A stretch of 64,000 bases of DNA from Persicimonas caeni (lineage in GTDB: Bacteria > Myxococcota_A > Bradymonadia > Bradymonadales > Bradymonadaceae): assembly GCF_006517175.1 (NCBI RefSeq), contig NZ_CP041186.1, positions 5,917,074-5,981,073 on the forward strand, read 5' to 3'. Both the position numbers and the translations under genes were made by a program. Under the pieces are notes generated by a model. It made no database searches, was not told the origin of the DNA, and saw only the letters and a program-made list of their open reading frames with translations. Positions 2,848 through 8,810 of the stretch are shown one piece after another (positions within the stretch are counted from its first letter, which is position 1; every line of letters begins with the position of its first letter).

Positions 2848-2908
2848 GGGGCCTCCTTACCGGTGTCAGCCGGCCTTCGAGTGGAACCGTTTGACTTATT
2901 TCAACACA

Positions 2909-2929
2909 TGTTGGAACAATAATCCAACA
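2909..2929. promoter_or_regulatory. Inverted repeat, candidate TetR operator
   Basis: Perfect 7-bp arms TGTTGGA and TCCAACA are separated by 7 bp (acaataa). The site sits between the divergent ferredoxin and TetR genes. It is AT-rich against a GC-rich background, and a TTGACT hexamer at 2891-2896 lies just beside it. Position, symmetry and length fit a TetR-family dimer site that controls both directions. The assignment to this particular TetR is an inference. Confidence 0.6.
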
Positions 2930-3048
2930 GCTGTGGGAATCAAGTGCTCGAGGTTCGTCGCTGCGCGACCGGAGGGGCGGGCTGTTTACATCTGACCGAA
3001 CGGTCCGTACATCTTAAAGAGACGTCGAATCTCGAAGCATAGGAAGTG

Positions 3049-5116: not shown

Positions 5117-6040
5117 CTACGACAACTCGTGACGAAGCGCGGCTTCGAGTTCCGGATAGGCGAACTCGAAGCCGCTTTCGTTTAGGCGGGTGGGCACGGC
5201 GCGCTGGCCGTTCAGAAGCATCTCTTGGCCCATCTCGCCCCCGCCGAGTTTCACGATCGCCTTGGGCAACGGAAAGATCGTGGGCCGGTGGAGCACGTCA
5301 CCCAACGTGTCGGTAAACTCTTTGTTCGTGACGGGGTGGGGCGCGGTGACGTTGACCGGCCCGGTGAGTTCATCGTTGTCGACCAGAAAGGCGATGGCGC
5401 GCACCACGTCGTCGAGGGCGATCCAACTCATGTACTGGTCGCCGCTGCCGATGCGACCGCCCAAACCGAGCTTGAACGGCGTGAGCATTTTTTGCAGTGC
5501 ACCGTCCTCGGTCGACAGGACGACGCCCAGGCGCGGGTTGACCGTGCGGATGCCGGCGTCGACCGCCGGCCGGCTCGCCGCCTCCCACTCCTCGCACACT
5601 TCCGCCAAGAACGTGTGGCCCGGCGCAGACGACTCGTCGACCACTTCAGGGCCGGTGTCGCCGTAATAGCCCACCGCCGAGGCCGACACGAATACATCAG
5701 GTGGGTTGTCGAGCCCGGCGAGGGTCTCTGCGACCAACCGCGTGCCCTGCCGCCGGCTCTCCATGATCGATTCTTTCTTTGCGTCGGTCCATCGCCCGAA
5801 CAGGTTCTCGCCGGCCAAGTGGACGACCACGTCGACGCCTTCGAGCTTGTCGGCCTCGATTTCGCCCCCGCGCGGCTGCCAGTAGATATTCTGCGGGTTA
5901 TCGGGCTGGCTGCGCCTCACCCGATGGATCGTGTAGCCGGCGTCGCCGAAGTAACTTCGTAGCGCCTGGCCGATCAGCCCGGACGAGCCGGTGATGGCGA
6001 TTCGCTTGGCGGCAGGTTCATTCGGTGCGTCGTTGGCCAT
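5117..6040 (-). CDS. TIGR01777-type epimerase-like SDR protein
   Basis: A 307-aa extended short-chain dehydrogenase/reductase. The N-terminal NAD(P)-binding motif is ITGSSGLIGQAL, followed by the landmarks VVHLAGENL, SASAVGYYGDTG and TVNPRLGVVLS typical of the TIGR01777 (YfcH-like) group. The C-terminal domain near residues 245-305 (NGQRAVPTRLNESGFEF) fits the DUF1731 region. The substrate is unknown. The start is the ATG at 6040, with AGGAG eight bases upstream; a GTG sits one codon before. It is the last gene of the minus-strand series beginning at the sigma factor, 12 bp after the secreted-protein gene. From memory, TIGR01777 genes often accompany LitR/CarH photoreceptors in other bacteria, which fits this context. 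Confidence 0.88.
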   Translation of the reverse strand: MANDAPNEPAAKRIAITGSSGLIGQALRSYFGDAGYTIHRVRRSQPDNPQNIYWQPRGGEIEADKLEGVDVVVHLAGENLFGRWTDAKKESIMESRRQGTRLVAETLAGLDNPPDVFVSASAVGYYGDTGPEVVDESSAPGHTFLAEVCEEWEAASRPAVDAGIRTVNPRLGVVLSTEDGALQKMLTPFKLGLGGRIGSGDQYMSWIALDDVVRAIAFLVDNDELTGPVNVTAPHPVTNKEFTDTLGDVLHRPTIFPLPKAIVKLGGGEMGQEMLLNGQRAVPTRLNESGFEFAYPELEAALRHELS

Positions 6041-6052
6041 CACTCATTCTCC

Positions 6053-6862
6053 TCAAAAGAGTCGTGCTCGACGTTTGACGATTGTCTGGCAGTCGGTGCC
6101 GTTTGTGACGCGGCGCATCTCGAAGTGGTTCTTCTTGCTGTCGGGGTGGGCGCGGCTCTCGGGGGGATCGCCCAAAAAGATGCTCGTCGAGTCGACGACC
6201 ACCTGTTCGAGGTTCCATTGTACGGCGCCCTCGATGTGATCCAGCCCCGAAAGTTTGCCTCGCAGCCGATCCCAGCCGCGGTGAATGATGTAGAGACTGC
6301 CATCGATGAGCCCGCTGACTCGTACCGTCATGCCCGGATGGCCGTCTCCATCTTGATCGAACACGCGCGGGTCATCGGCTTCGGTGGGCAGGTTCTCGCT
6401 GTTGGGCGCACGCAGCCGGACGCCCAAGACCTCGAACTTCCGAGGCACGTGCAGGTGGTATGCCCCATCTTTTTCGACGAGCCTTGCCGGGCGCTTGACC
6501 ACGCCCATCGCAGCGACAAAGCGTTTGGGGATATGCGTCTCGACCACGTCGACCGAGCTGTGCACCTTGATGGCGCAGACCTCGGTTTGCATCTCGAGCT
6601 TCTCGCCTGTCTGAGAGATGTCGACTTTTTGAAGGGAGATGGTGCGGGTGACCACTTCGCCGACGATAGGCACCTCCGAGACGGCCGTGGTGACCACCTG
6701 CTGAGCCCAAGTGCCGCCCAAGTTGGGGGGCTGGTTGGCGGTGTCATCGGCAGACGCCTCCGCCTCGGTCTTGGCGGCTGCCACCGACGTACTCTCCTGA
6801 GCGGCGGCGGTGACCGGCACCATCAACAGACACAACACCATCGAGCTCAAAATCCGACGCAT
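6053..6862 (-). CDS. Secreted protein of unknown function
   Basis: I do not recognise the family. The ATG at 6862 is preceded by GGGAGG and begins a clear signal peptide (MRRILSSMVLCLLMVPVTA), with likely cleavage at AAA-QE. The mature protein is about 245 aa. It has a low-complexity Ala/Glu/Asp stretch at its N-terminus, then a mostly beta-like region containing the acidic DQDGDGHPG segment, which could bind calcium. An upstream start at 6886 would put eight residues before the signal peptide and is not favoured. It lies 24 bp after the CarH-like regulator and 12 bp before the SDR gene, so it is probably co-transcribed with both and may share their light control (inference). Confidence 0.75.
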   Translation of the reverse strand: MRRILSSMVLCLLMVPVTAAAQESTSVAAAKTEAEASADDTANQPPNLGGTWAQQVVTTAVSEVPIVGEVVTRTISLQKVDISQTGEKLEMQTEVCAIKVHSSVDVVETHIPKRFVAAMGVVKRPARLVEKDGAYHLHVPRKFEVLGVRLRAPNSENLPTEADDPRVFDQDGDGHPGMTVRVSGLIDGSLYIIHRGWDRLRGKLSGLDHIEGAVQWNLEQVVVDSTSIFLGDPPESRAHPDSKKNHFEMRRVTNGTDCQTIVKRRARLF

Positions 6863-6886
6863 GCAACCTCCCTCGTGTATCACCAA

Positions 6887-7843
6887 TCAATCTTTAGCGC
6901 GGCGAGCCAATTGCCGAGCCCATTCATACAATTCGTCCCAGCTGTTCAAGTGAATCTCTTGGCCTTCGGCGTGGGGACGTCCGGCGCCACCGACCACGAG
7001 TAAGACGTCGCGCGTCATTGCTGCGCTCAAAGCGGTGAGCATTCCACGCGCCTTTTGTTGATCATAGGCACGCGACACACTGATGATTACCGCTGCACTG
7101 CTCTGATGGTTGGCTGCGTCCGATATATCCTGCAGCGGTGTATCGGCTCCCAAGAAGACAACCTGGCAGCCAGCCAGAGCTACGACCACGGCGGCCATGT
7201 GCAGACCGAGGCAATGGAACTCGCCCGGTAGCGTCGTCATCACGATCTTGGGGCCGTCGGTGCGGTCGCTGAGCGGGCGCCATTGCCGGGTCAAAAAGTC
7301 TCGCAATCGCTCGCTCACAAAGTGCTCGTGAGACACGTGCAGCCGACCGTTGGCCCACTCTTCGCCGACGGCGTGCAGAAAAGGGCCGATGCGCTGGTCG
7401 AGGAAGCGAATGCCACCAAACTTGTTCCAGGAGCGGTAAAAGTGGTCCTCGACGGCGCTGCCATCCAACTCGCAGGTAGCTTCGAGCCACGGCTCGAGCC
7501 ACTCTTCACGCATCAGCTCTTCAGAACTCTCGATCTCCGGCGGCGGTGCCGGCGGCTCCACATCGACCCGCGCGCCGCGACTGGTCAGCAGCAACTCACG
7601 CAGCGTCTCGATATCCTCGTCGACCACTTGACTGGGGCGGTGCCCGGCGTCGAGCGCTTCGGAGACGAGTCTCAGCCGAGCGACCGTGTCGACGTCGTAG
7701 ACGCGGTGGCCTGCCTCGTTGCGATCCGGATTCGGAAAGCCGTAGCGGCGCTCCCAGGTGCGTATCGTCTCTTTTGGGATTCCCGTCGCTTGAGATAGCG
7801 CACCAATGCTCAAGGTCGGTTTGTCGGCGGAATTGCCGTTCAT
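6887..7843 (-). CDS. litR: CarH/LitR-type MerR regulator with cobalamin-binding domain
   Basis: A 318-aa protein with a MerR winged helix (about 11-75; TGIPKETIRTWERRYGFPNP), a four-helix B12-cap domain (about 110-190) and a Rossmann B12-binding domain (about 195-300). The AdoCbl-photoreceptor motif W-X9-E-H is present (Trp163, Glu173, His174), and EFHCLG (208-213) fits the E/D-X-H-X2-G lower-ligand motif with His210. Members of this family repress promoters in the dark with adenosylcobalamin and release DNA on illumination. The residue after Trp163 is Ala; in Thermus CarH I recall a His there that ligates cobalt after photolysis. The start at 7843 has TGGAG six bases upstream. It follows the ECF sigma gene, as litS-litR do in Streptomyces (recalled). 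Confidence 0.9.
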   Translation of the reverse strand: MNGNSADKPTLSIGALSQATGIPKETIRTWERRYGFPNPDRNEAGHRVYDVDTVARLRLVSEALDAGHRPSQVVDEDIETLRELLLTSRGARVDVEPPAPPPEIESSEELMREEWLEPWLEATCELDGSAVEDHFYRSWNKFGGIRFLDQRIGPFLHAVGEEWANGRLHVSHEHFVSERLRDFLTRQWRPLSDRTDGPKIVMTTLPGEFHCLGLHMAAVVVALAGCQVVFLGADTPLQDISDAANHQSSAAVIISVSRAYDQQKARGMLTALSAAMTRDVLLVVGGAGRPHAEGQEIHLNSWDELYEWARQLARRAKD

Positions 7844-7985: not shown

Positions 7986-8013
7986 TGAACAGGGGTTGTT
8001 CAAGCGCTGTTCA
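7986..8013 (-). promoter_or_regulatory. Candidate CarH/LitR operator upstream of litR
   Basis: Read on the minus strand, TGAACA occurs at 8013-8008 and again at 8002-7997, exactly 11 bp apart. A degenerate TGTTCA follows at 7991-7986, another 11 bp on. The site lies just past the sigma-factor stop codon and about 150 bp upstream of litR. The hexamer fits TnnACA, the core I recall for CarH half-sites. This suggests autoregulation of litR separate from sigma-factor read-through (inference). Confidence 0.55.
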
Positions 8014-8019
8014 GCAACT

Positions 8020-8592
8020 TCAAGCGCTCGCCAGCAAATAGCCGCTCTCGAGCTTCTCGCGCAGACCCACGCGCAGCCGGTGCAGACGGGTTTTGACCGC
8101 CGCCTCGGTGAGATCGAGTTTCTCGGCGACCTCCTCCTTGTCGACCCCGTTCCATTCCATGTCGACGTAGACCACGGTGTTCTTCTCGTTGCACTCCTCG
8201 AGGTACTCCATGATCTCGGCCAAGATCTGCTTGCCGGCCAAGTGCTCATCGGGGCGCTCGTCGAAGTCGCCTTCGTCCTCGCGGTGGCGCAGCGCGTGGA
8301 GGGTGTCGTCCTCCAGGGGCACCGGGTGGCGCTTGTACTTGCGCGTCTTCATGCGCGCTTCGTTGACCGCGATGCGGTACATCCAACTCCACAGCGCGCT
8401 GTTTTGTCGGAAAGTGTCGATCTTCTCGCACACCTTGAACAGCACGTCTTGAGTGACCTCTTCTGCGTCCCACTCGTCTTTGACCAAGGGAAGGACCACC
8501 GCGAAGATGCGACCGCGGTACGTCTCGCACAGGTGTTGAATGGCGTCGGTCTCGCCGGCGATGAGTCGGTTGATGAGCTGTTGTTCGTTCAT
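8020..8592 (-). CDS. ECF-type RNA polymerase sigma factor
   Basis: A 190-aa group IV sigma factor. Region 2 (about 15-85) contains DEWDAEEVTQDVLFKV and the WSWMYRIAVNEARM helix; region 4 (about 130-185) contains LDLTEAAVKTRLHRLR. The linker is rich in acidic residues. GGGAG lies eight bases before the ATG. A sigma-70-like promoter (TTGACC, 16 bp, CATAAT on the minus strand, 8663 to 8636) with three 11-bp repeats over it precedes the gene. No anti-sigma factor is encoded next to it. The neighbouring litR-type repressor and the operator together suggest that light or B12 status controls the sigma factor, as in the LitR-LitS and CarH systems (inference). Confidence 0.92.
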   Translation of the reverse strand: MNEQQLINRLIAGETDAIQHLCETYRGRIFAVVLPLVKDEWDAEEVTQDVLFKVCEKIDTFRQNSALWSWMYRIAVNEARMKTRKYKRHPVPLEDDTLHALRHREDEGDFDERPDEHLAGKQILAEIMEYLEECNEKNTVVYVDMEWNGVDKEEVAEKLDLTEAAVKTRLHRLRVGLREKLESGYLLASA

Positions 8593-8628
8593 TGTTCATT
8601 CTCCCTGGGGTTCTACCTTGCCAAGGTC

Positions 8629-8663
8629 TGAACTGATTATGAACAATGGTTGAACAGGGTCAA
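8629..8663 (-). promoter_or_regulatory. Promoter of ECF sigma gene overlapped by 11-bp direct repeats (CarH-like operator)
   Basis: On the plus strand three tandem 11-mers start at 8629 (TGAACTGATTA), 8640 (TGAACAATGGT) and 8651 (TGAACAGGGTC). Further TGAACA/TGTTCA copies lie at 8671 and 8688. On the minus strand a -35 (TTGACC, 8663-8658), a 16-bp spacer and a -10 (CATAAT, 8641-8636) coincide with the repeats. Three 11-bp repeats with the pattern TnnACA match the CarH operator architecture as I recall it for Thermus. Bound repressor would cover the whole core promoter. Confidence 0.72.
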
Positions 8664-8810
8664 GTGTGAATGAACAGGTTTTGGCCCTGTTCAGTTCTTT
8701 TTCATGTAAACGGACTGTTTCCGCAGGTGAACTTGACGGGGCGGTCGATGGGGGCCATTGCTCTAGGGAGCGTAAATTATGAACACCCCCTACATATCGA
8801 GGCACCCCCT

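Follow-up and report, generated by a model that had tools for sequence, protein, structure and literature searches.

Phased repeats over an ECF sigma promoter in Persicimonas caeni as probable operators of an adjacent CarH/LitR-type photoreceptor

In Persicimonas caeni, a predatory bacterium, tandem 11-bp repeats lie over the promoter of a gene for an ECF sigma factor, and the next gene specifies a B12-binding protein of the CarH/LitR photoreceptor family. The repeats are probably the operators of that adjacent regulator, which would repress with AdoCbl bound in the dark and be released in light, with the sigma factor serving as amplifier. Direct support comes from the repeats themselves, their phasing, their conservation and overlap with the promoter, from the protein family and its signature residues, and from an association with light genes in relatives. 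Strain YN101 of this species is a pink-colonied member of the Bradymonadales from a marine solar saltern (PMC7188933). The window, i.e. the whole stretch of DNA analyzed, is 64 kb long, and the genome that was scanned is a single contig of 8,047,206 bp.

Two arrays at the sigma-litR locus

Array 1 (8629..8661, + strand), recognized by direct reading, genome scans and shuffles, consists of TGAACTGATTA, TGAACAATGGT and TGAACAGGGTC, which start on the + strand at 8629, 8640 and 8651 and have the cores TGAACT, TGAACA and TGAACA, i.e. two perfect repeats and one matching at five of six positions. Its TnnACA is on the + strand, antisense to the sigma gene, the sense strand reading TGTTCA. The array overlaps the sigma70-type promoter of the ECF sigma gene (8636..8663, - strand), in which TTGACC at 8663-8658 and CATAAT at 8641-8636 are separated by 16 bp, and the beginning of the -10 falls within a TGTTCA half-site. 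This promoter is evident both by reading and in a promoter scan, with a score of 10/12; the scan gave 3 promoter-like sites versus 0.3 in shuffles. The three 11-mers of the preliminary description are exactly as it gave them, and the promoter with which it had them coincide is likewise present. A CarH operator comprises at least three tandem 11-bp TnnACA repeats, some of them degenerate, over promoter elements, as does array 1. The fit of the window repeats to the published 11-bp CarH repeat, 5'-nnnnTnnACAn-3' (PMC9304148), together with the conserved phasing and the overlap with the -10, supports the initial suggestion that these are CarH-type operators over a sigma promoter.

Two additional half-sites that the preliminary description did not include were found by reading upstream of the promoter (8671..8693), TGAACA at 8671-8676 and an inverted TGTTCA at 8688-8693, forming TGAACAGG-N7-CCTGTTCA. 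The first of these is 20 bp from 8651, an offset that agrees with the 20-22 bp phasing peak in relatives (see below). The same segment, with a T-rich stretch after it, had been called as a + strand terminator, but is here reinterpreted as paired half-sites because there is no + strand gene upstream. One more half-site, at 8780, is near the divergent gene.

Array 2 (7986..8013, - strand; reading, scans and shuffles) is located between the stop codon of the sigma gene and litR and, from 8013 down to 7986, reads TGAACA-N5-TGAACA-N5-TGTTCA, with two direct repeats oriented opposite to those of array 1, followed by an inverted third element. A second array before the litR-like gene, with the same 11-bp step, had been proposed and does exist; the simple opposite orientation ascribed to it does not stand, the orientation being mixed because of the inverted third element. 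The promoter scan revealed no strong promoter at array 2, only a weak internal candidate, TCGACA-18-TACCAT. The 176-bp gap between sigma and litR in which the array resides is missing in relatives that have a tight sigma-litR junction.

Three-repeat arrays with at least 17 of 18 matching positions occur in the 64-kb window only at 8629 and 7986, and none was encountered in 60 shuffles of the whole window or, for each intergenic region, in 4000 shuffles. The genome scan for the triple repeat that the preliminary description had put forward was run as the TnnACA pattern, and with up to one mismatch it yielded five matches in the whole genome, two of which are arrays 1 and 2 (reversed control, 2). 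The exact pair TGTTCA-N5-TGTTCA has four matches genome-wide, again with arrays 1 and 2 accounting for two, and none in the reversed control. That array 2 is above chance in this genome is statistically sound. When one mismatch in the pair is permitted, there are 12 sites versus 3 in the control, and five of the 12 are at the sigma-litR locus; those outside it adjoin unrelated genes and, therefore, a wider direct LitR regulon is not claimed in this genome.

Promoter layout in relatives and the direction of control

At sigma-litR promoters of the class, 10 of 13 have a TTGANN -35, a spacer of 15-17 bp and a half-site across the -10, the first two bases of the latter being the CA of TGTTCA. With inclusion of wider loci, the -10 is overlapped in 11 of 23 sigma-litR promoters, compared with a null of 0.5, about half being without the overlap. 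The similarity can be judged from the promoter of one relative (G003), TTGACAcctgttcaaacgtTGTTCATATT, set against that of the window, TTGACCctgttcaaccatTGTTCATAAT, the LitR proteins of the two being ~47-50% identical. With half-sites over the -10, a bound protein would block polymerase, and a spacer of 16-17 bp fits a repressed ordinary promoter.

These features also make it unlikely that LitR binds the repeats yet activates the sigma promoter in light. Activation is common among MerR-family proteins, but classical MerR activators work on long-spacer promoters, and here, with the 16-17 bp spacer, half-sites cover both the -10 and the spacer, with one at about the start site. The pertinent precedent for activation is in Streptomyces, where light-activated LitR is described as raising transcription at the litS promoter (PMC12705666).

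The regulator and its cobalamin domain

The product of the litR/carH-like gene (6887..7843, - strand), 318 aa, is composed of a MerR winged helix, a four-helix bundle and a B12-binding Rossmann domain, as judged by Pfam (MerR_1, B12-binding_2 and B12-binding), phmmer and Foldseek, and is the one full-length CarH/LitR homologue in its own genome. Thermus CarH/LitR (5c8d/3whp) ranks first in phmmer (1.6e-28 for 5c8d). The predicted model, with a pLDDT of 88, matches DNA-bound CarH (5c8e) in Foldseek at 1.3e-17, and its comparison by VIA with the CarH B12 domain gives a Z of 21.1 and an rmsd of 2.1 with 191 residues aligned. By sequence and by the fold of the model, with Pfam, phmmer, Foldseek and VIA in agreement on domain homology, the photoreceptor-type identity first suggested for this gene is that of the CarH/LitR family. 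The signature of light-responsive cobalamin domains is GxxW/EH/GxxH/GxxxP (PMC11796333), and all four motifs are present, as GEEW160-163, EH173-174, GEFH207 and GADTP232-236. Also present are the cobalamin residues of W-x9-EH and ExHxxG (208-213), with His as lower axial ligand, and W163, E173, E208, H210 and G213 are invariant in the alignment of LitR homologues.

The best family match is the NCBIfam CarH equivalog, NF052513, at 127.8 bits, under its 400-bit cut-off, and the LitR proteins of relatives score from 113 to 128 bits with it. That cut-off is a naming rule and not a biological definition; taken on sequence, the LitR clade is a distant CarH subfamily outside the narrow equivalog. A further distinction is that the counterpart of Thermus thermophilus CarH (TtCarH) His132, the upper ligand and the residue after the key Trp, is Ala164. 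Only one of 65 close homologues (LitR loci L078-L195) has His at this position, and in this clade the bis-His light state of Thermus would seem to be exceptional.

Such a substitution could be taken to mean that LitR binds the repeats but senses AdoCbl, or redox/oxygen, and not light, especially as the H132A variant of TtCarH largely fails to disassemble in light and stays mostly tetrameric (PMC10442372). However, the upper-ligand position does not define the family, as it varies in proved photoreceptors, being Arg in CtMerR and Gln or Tyr in others, and CtMerR with its Arg is light-responsive still (PMC11796333). With, in addition, the presence of all four signature motifs, and with carotenoid, photolyase and related genes among the targets in relatives, a signal other than light is quite unlikely. 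For the favored reading, in which light is what relieves repression, release in this clade would not use a bis-His state.

Conservation of the half-sites

LitR orthologues are present in most members of the family and extend to further families of the class, with a sigma orthologue preceding many of them. In a set of 24 promoters of orthologous litR genes or sigma-litR operons, assembled at the class level and compared with dinucleotide shuffles, there are 72 exact TGTTCA half-sites versus 5.2 +- 2.5 in the shuffles, and direct 11-bp spacing is found 30 times versus 0.4. Further peaks of spacing at 20-22, 31-33 and 41-44 bp correspond to approximately two, three and four helical turns, and on reduction to one locus per genus 18 pairs still have the 11-bp spacing. 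Another set, independent of the first, derives from named genome records, Lujinxingia vulgaris included, in which a scan with a single protein gave zero matches while an alignment scan did find loci. Its 39 loci in which LitR identity is 36% or more have 53 half-sites, where ~3 are expected, and 25 pairs at 11 bp, whereas 18 loci with LitR less than 36% identical have 7 half-sites versus 2.6. The motif, being abundant in the former and faded in the latter, therefore follows the LitR clade. Its occurrence at litR promoters both with and without an adjacent sigma gene speaks against sigma autoregulation.

Though some ECF -35 elements resemble TGAAC and some LexA boxes resemble GTTC, it is very unlikely that the repeats serve some factor other than LitR, whether as sites of the ECF sigma itself through a TGAAC-like -35, of LexA through a GTTC-type box, or of some other regulator, given the motif at litR promoters of genomes without sigma beside litR, its 11-bp-phased multiples in place of a -35/-10 pair, the few genome-wide copies outside the sigma-litR locus, which speak against a global SOS box, and its fading with LitR divergence, and on these grounds the LexA and ECF-autoregulation readings are rejected.

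The operon and its candidate targets

The gene order on the - strand is ECF sigma, litR, the gene for a 277-aa protein and that for a TIGR01777 oxidoreductase. The first gene of the operon (8020..8592, - strand) specifies a 190-aa ECF sigma factor with sigma70 regions 2 and 4, as identified by domain matches and by orthologues paired with litR; at this locus no anti-sigma gene adjoins it. The last gene of the putative operon (5117..6043, - strand) was assigned to the TIGR01777 family of oxidoreductases by family match, and in other genomes a TGTTCA pair is directly before its homologue. The 277-aa protein, encoded directly downstream of litR (6053..6886, - strand), is probably secreted. Its sequence is signal-peptide-like and has no Pfam or NCBIfam match, and its homologues are encoded after litR, or in a photolyase operon that a triple operator array precedes (relatives L078, L082, L083, L091 and L109); a new family of light-stress proteins is possible.

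Same-family genomes have ~32 exact TGTTCA pairs versus 2 for the reversed control. Those outside litR promoters include pairs before genes for lycopene cyclase (G002), a crtI-like product (G014) and TIGR01777 proteins (G009 and G017). A triple array precedes an operon that ends with photolyase (G014), and in G003 the sigma-litR operon comes right after the genes for lycopene cyclase, CrtI and phytoene synthase. As other pairs adjoin genes without an obvious link to light, the association with light genes is strong but not exclusive. In P. caeni itself, the carotenoid operon (crtB, crtI, crtW and lycopene cyclase; L198:8622-13082) is ~3 Mb from litR, with no pair of up to two mismatches within 19 kb, and no operator of its own was found for photolyase; accordingly, both would be reached through sigma. 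Upstream of the sigma, crt, photolyase and glutathione-transferase-like genes, no sigma-dependent promoter motif is convincingly shared. The candidates considered were GGAAACA, a block that precedes several of the sigma genes, and bipartite motifs before the crt, photolyase and glutathione-transferase-like genes.

A different type of occurrence is in two relatives (L108:4223 and L110:4015), where exact TGTTCA pairs are between a gene of the sigma70 region 2/3 family and a divergent small gene, a hint of LitR control of a second sigma factor there. Elsewhere in the window (2848-3045), an inverted repeat, GTTGGAACAATAATCCAAC, separates a PsrA-like TetR gene from a ferredoxin/di-iron oxidase-like pair, and is likely the operator of that TetR. 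A TetR/ferredoxin/di-iron oxidase-like gene set adjoins the sigma-litR operon in one relative (G004, L091).

Comparison with known systems

The AdoCbl-dependent photoreceptor repressor CarH, known from Thermus thermophilus, Bacillus megaterium and myxobacteria, has its domains in the order seen here, a MerR HTH, then a four-helix bundle and a B12 Rossmann domain, and also shared are W-x9-EH, the His lower ligand and 11-bp tandem TnnACA repeats over a promoter. The known CarH systems involve dark repression with release in light (PMC9304148). Their targets are crt genes, whereas here the target is the ECF sigma-litR operon, and the present case further differs in having its TGAACA consensus on the antisense strand, the -10 and not the -35 inside a repeat, and Ala for His132. 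In Myxococcus xanthus one of the repeats takes in the -35, TTGACA (PMC9304148), and the strand with TnnACA at the sigma promoter of the window, the antisense, is the reverse of that in M. xanthus. With LitR-LitS of Streptomyces coelicolor, the common feature would be control by a CarH/LitR photoreceptor of an ECF sigma gene whose product drives light-response genes; the lineage is another one and its LitR is described as promoting the litS promoter, whereas in the present case the sigma and litR genes run in one direction as a putative operon and phased operators are on the promoter. CarQ-CarR-CarS of M. xanthus is also an ECF-sigma light response, and from the same broad bacterial group. CarQ, however, is kept in check by an anti-sigma in the membrane and its signal is singlet oxygen, in parallel to CarH, while here an anti-sigma gene is not adjacent and control appears to be transcriptional, via LitR. 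CtMerR of Chloracidobacterium thermophilum (8jbs/8jbt) is a light-responsive MerR-type B12 protein that also lacks the His132 upper ligand, though with a Z of 19.5 and 21% identity it is farther from the window LitR than is TtCarH (28-29%).

Proposed mechanism

In the dark, oligomers of AdoCbl-bound LitR along the 11-bp-phased TGAACA half-sites would block RNA polymerase at TTGACC/CATAAT, keeping the ECF sigma low and, by way of read-through, also litR and the genes for the 277-aa and TIGR01777 proteins. Light would cleave the Co-C bond with consequent release of LitR and synthesis of sigma and LitR, and sigma would then direct a photoprotection regulon that includes the crt operon and photolyase. 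Array 2 would add another brake by which LitR restrains its own gene, with action at a weak internal promoter and as a roadblock to read-through both possible. In this scheme we infer LitR binding, AdoCbl dependence, light release, repression over activation, and the sigma regulon. Tetramer binding by LitR is assumed by analogy with Thermus; in Cystobacter, CarH forms a dimer (PMC9304148).

A broader proposal is considerably more tentative. It envisages a light switch widespread in Bradymonadia and relatives. There, a CarH-type photoreceptor lacking a bis-His state would directly repress a sigma-photoreceptor operon via half-sites in the -10, arrays ~630 bp apart could loop or act as a roadblock, and light would fire a sigma amplifier without an anti-sigma.

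Significance

CarH operators and a LitR-to-ECF cascade are each known already, and it is the lineage and the wiring that are new: the conserved half-site inside the -10, the repeat orientation reversed with respect to M. xanthus, the placing of sigma and litR in one co-directional operon, and the absence of the upper-ligand His from nearly the whole clade. A limited search of open papers found no described light response for Bradymonadia and related Myxococcota/Deltaproteobacteria-labelled MAGs. To judge from the sequences, the repeats are very probably the sites through which the light sensor switches on sunlight-protection genes in light. The operator rule that emerges for this clade of B12 light sensors is specific and applies class-wide: TGTTCA at 11-bp steps, with one half-site inside the -10. 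It covers Bradymonadia and other Myxococcota/Deltaproteobacteria-labelled MAGs and extends LitR-to-ECF-sigma wiring beyond Streptomyces. For optogenetics, the system would offer a sigma70 promoter that is under repression and brings its own sigma amplifier, and the close homologues, nearly all of which lack the upper-ligand His, are a natural set bearing on the need for a bis-His state in light release.
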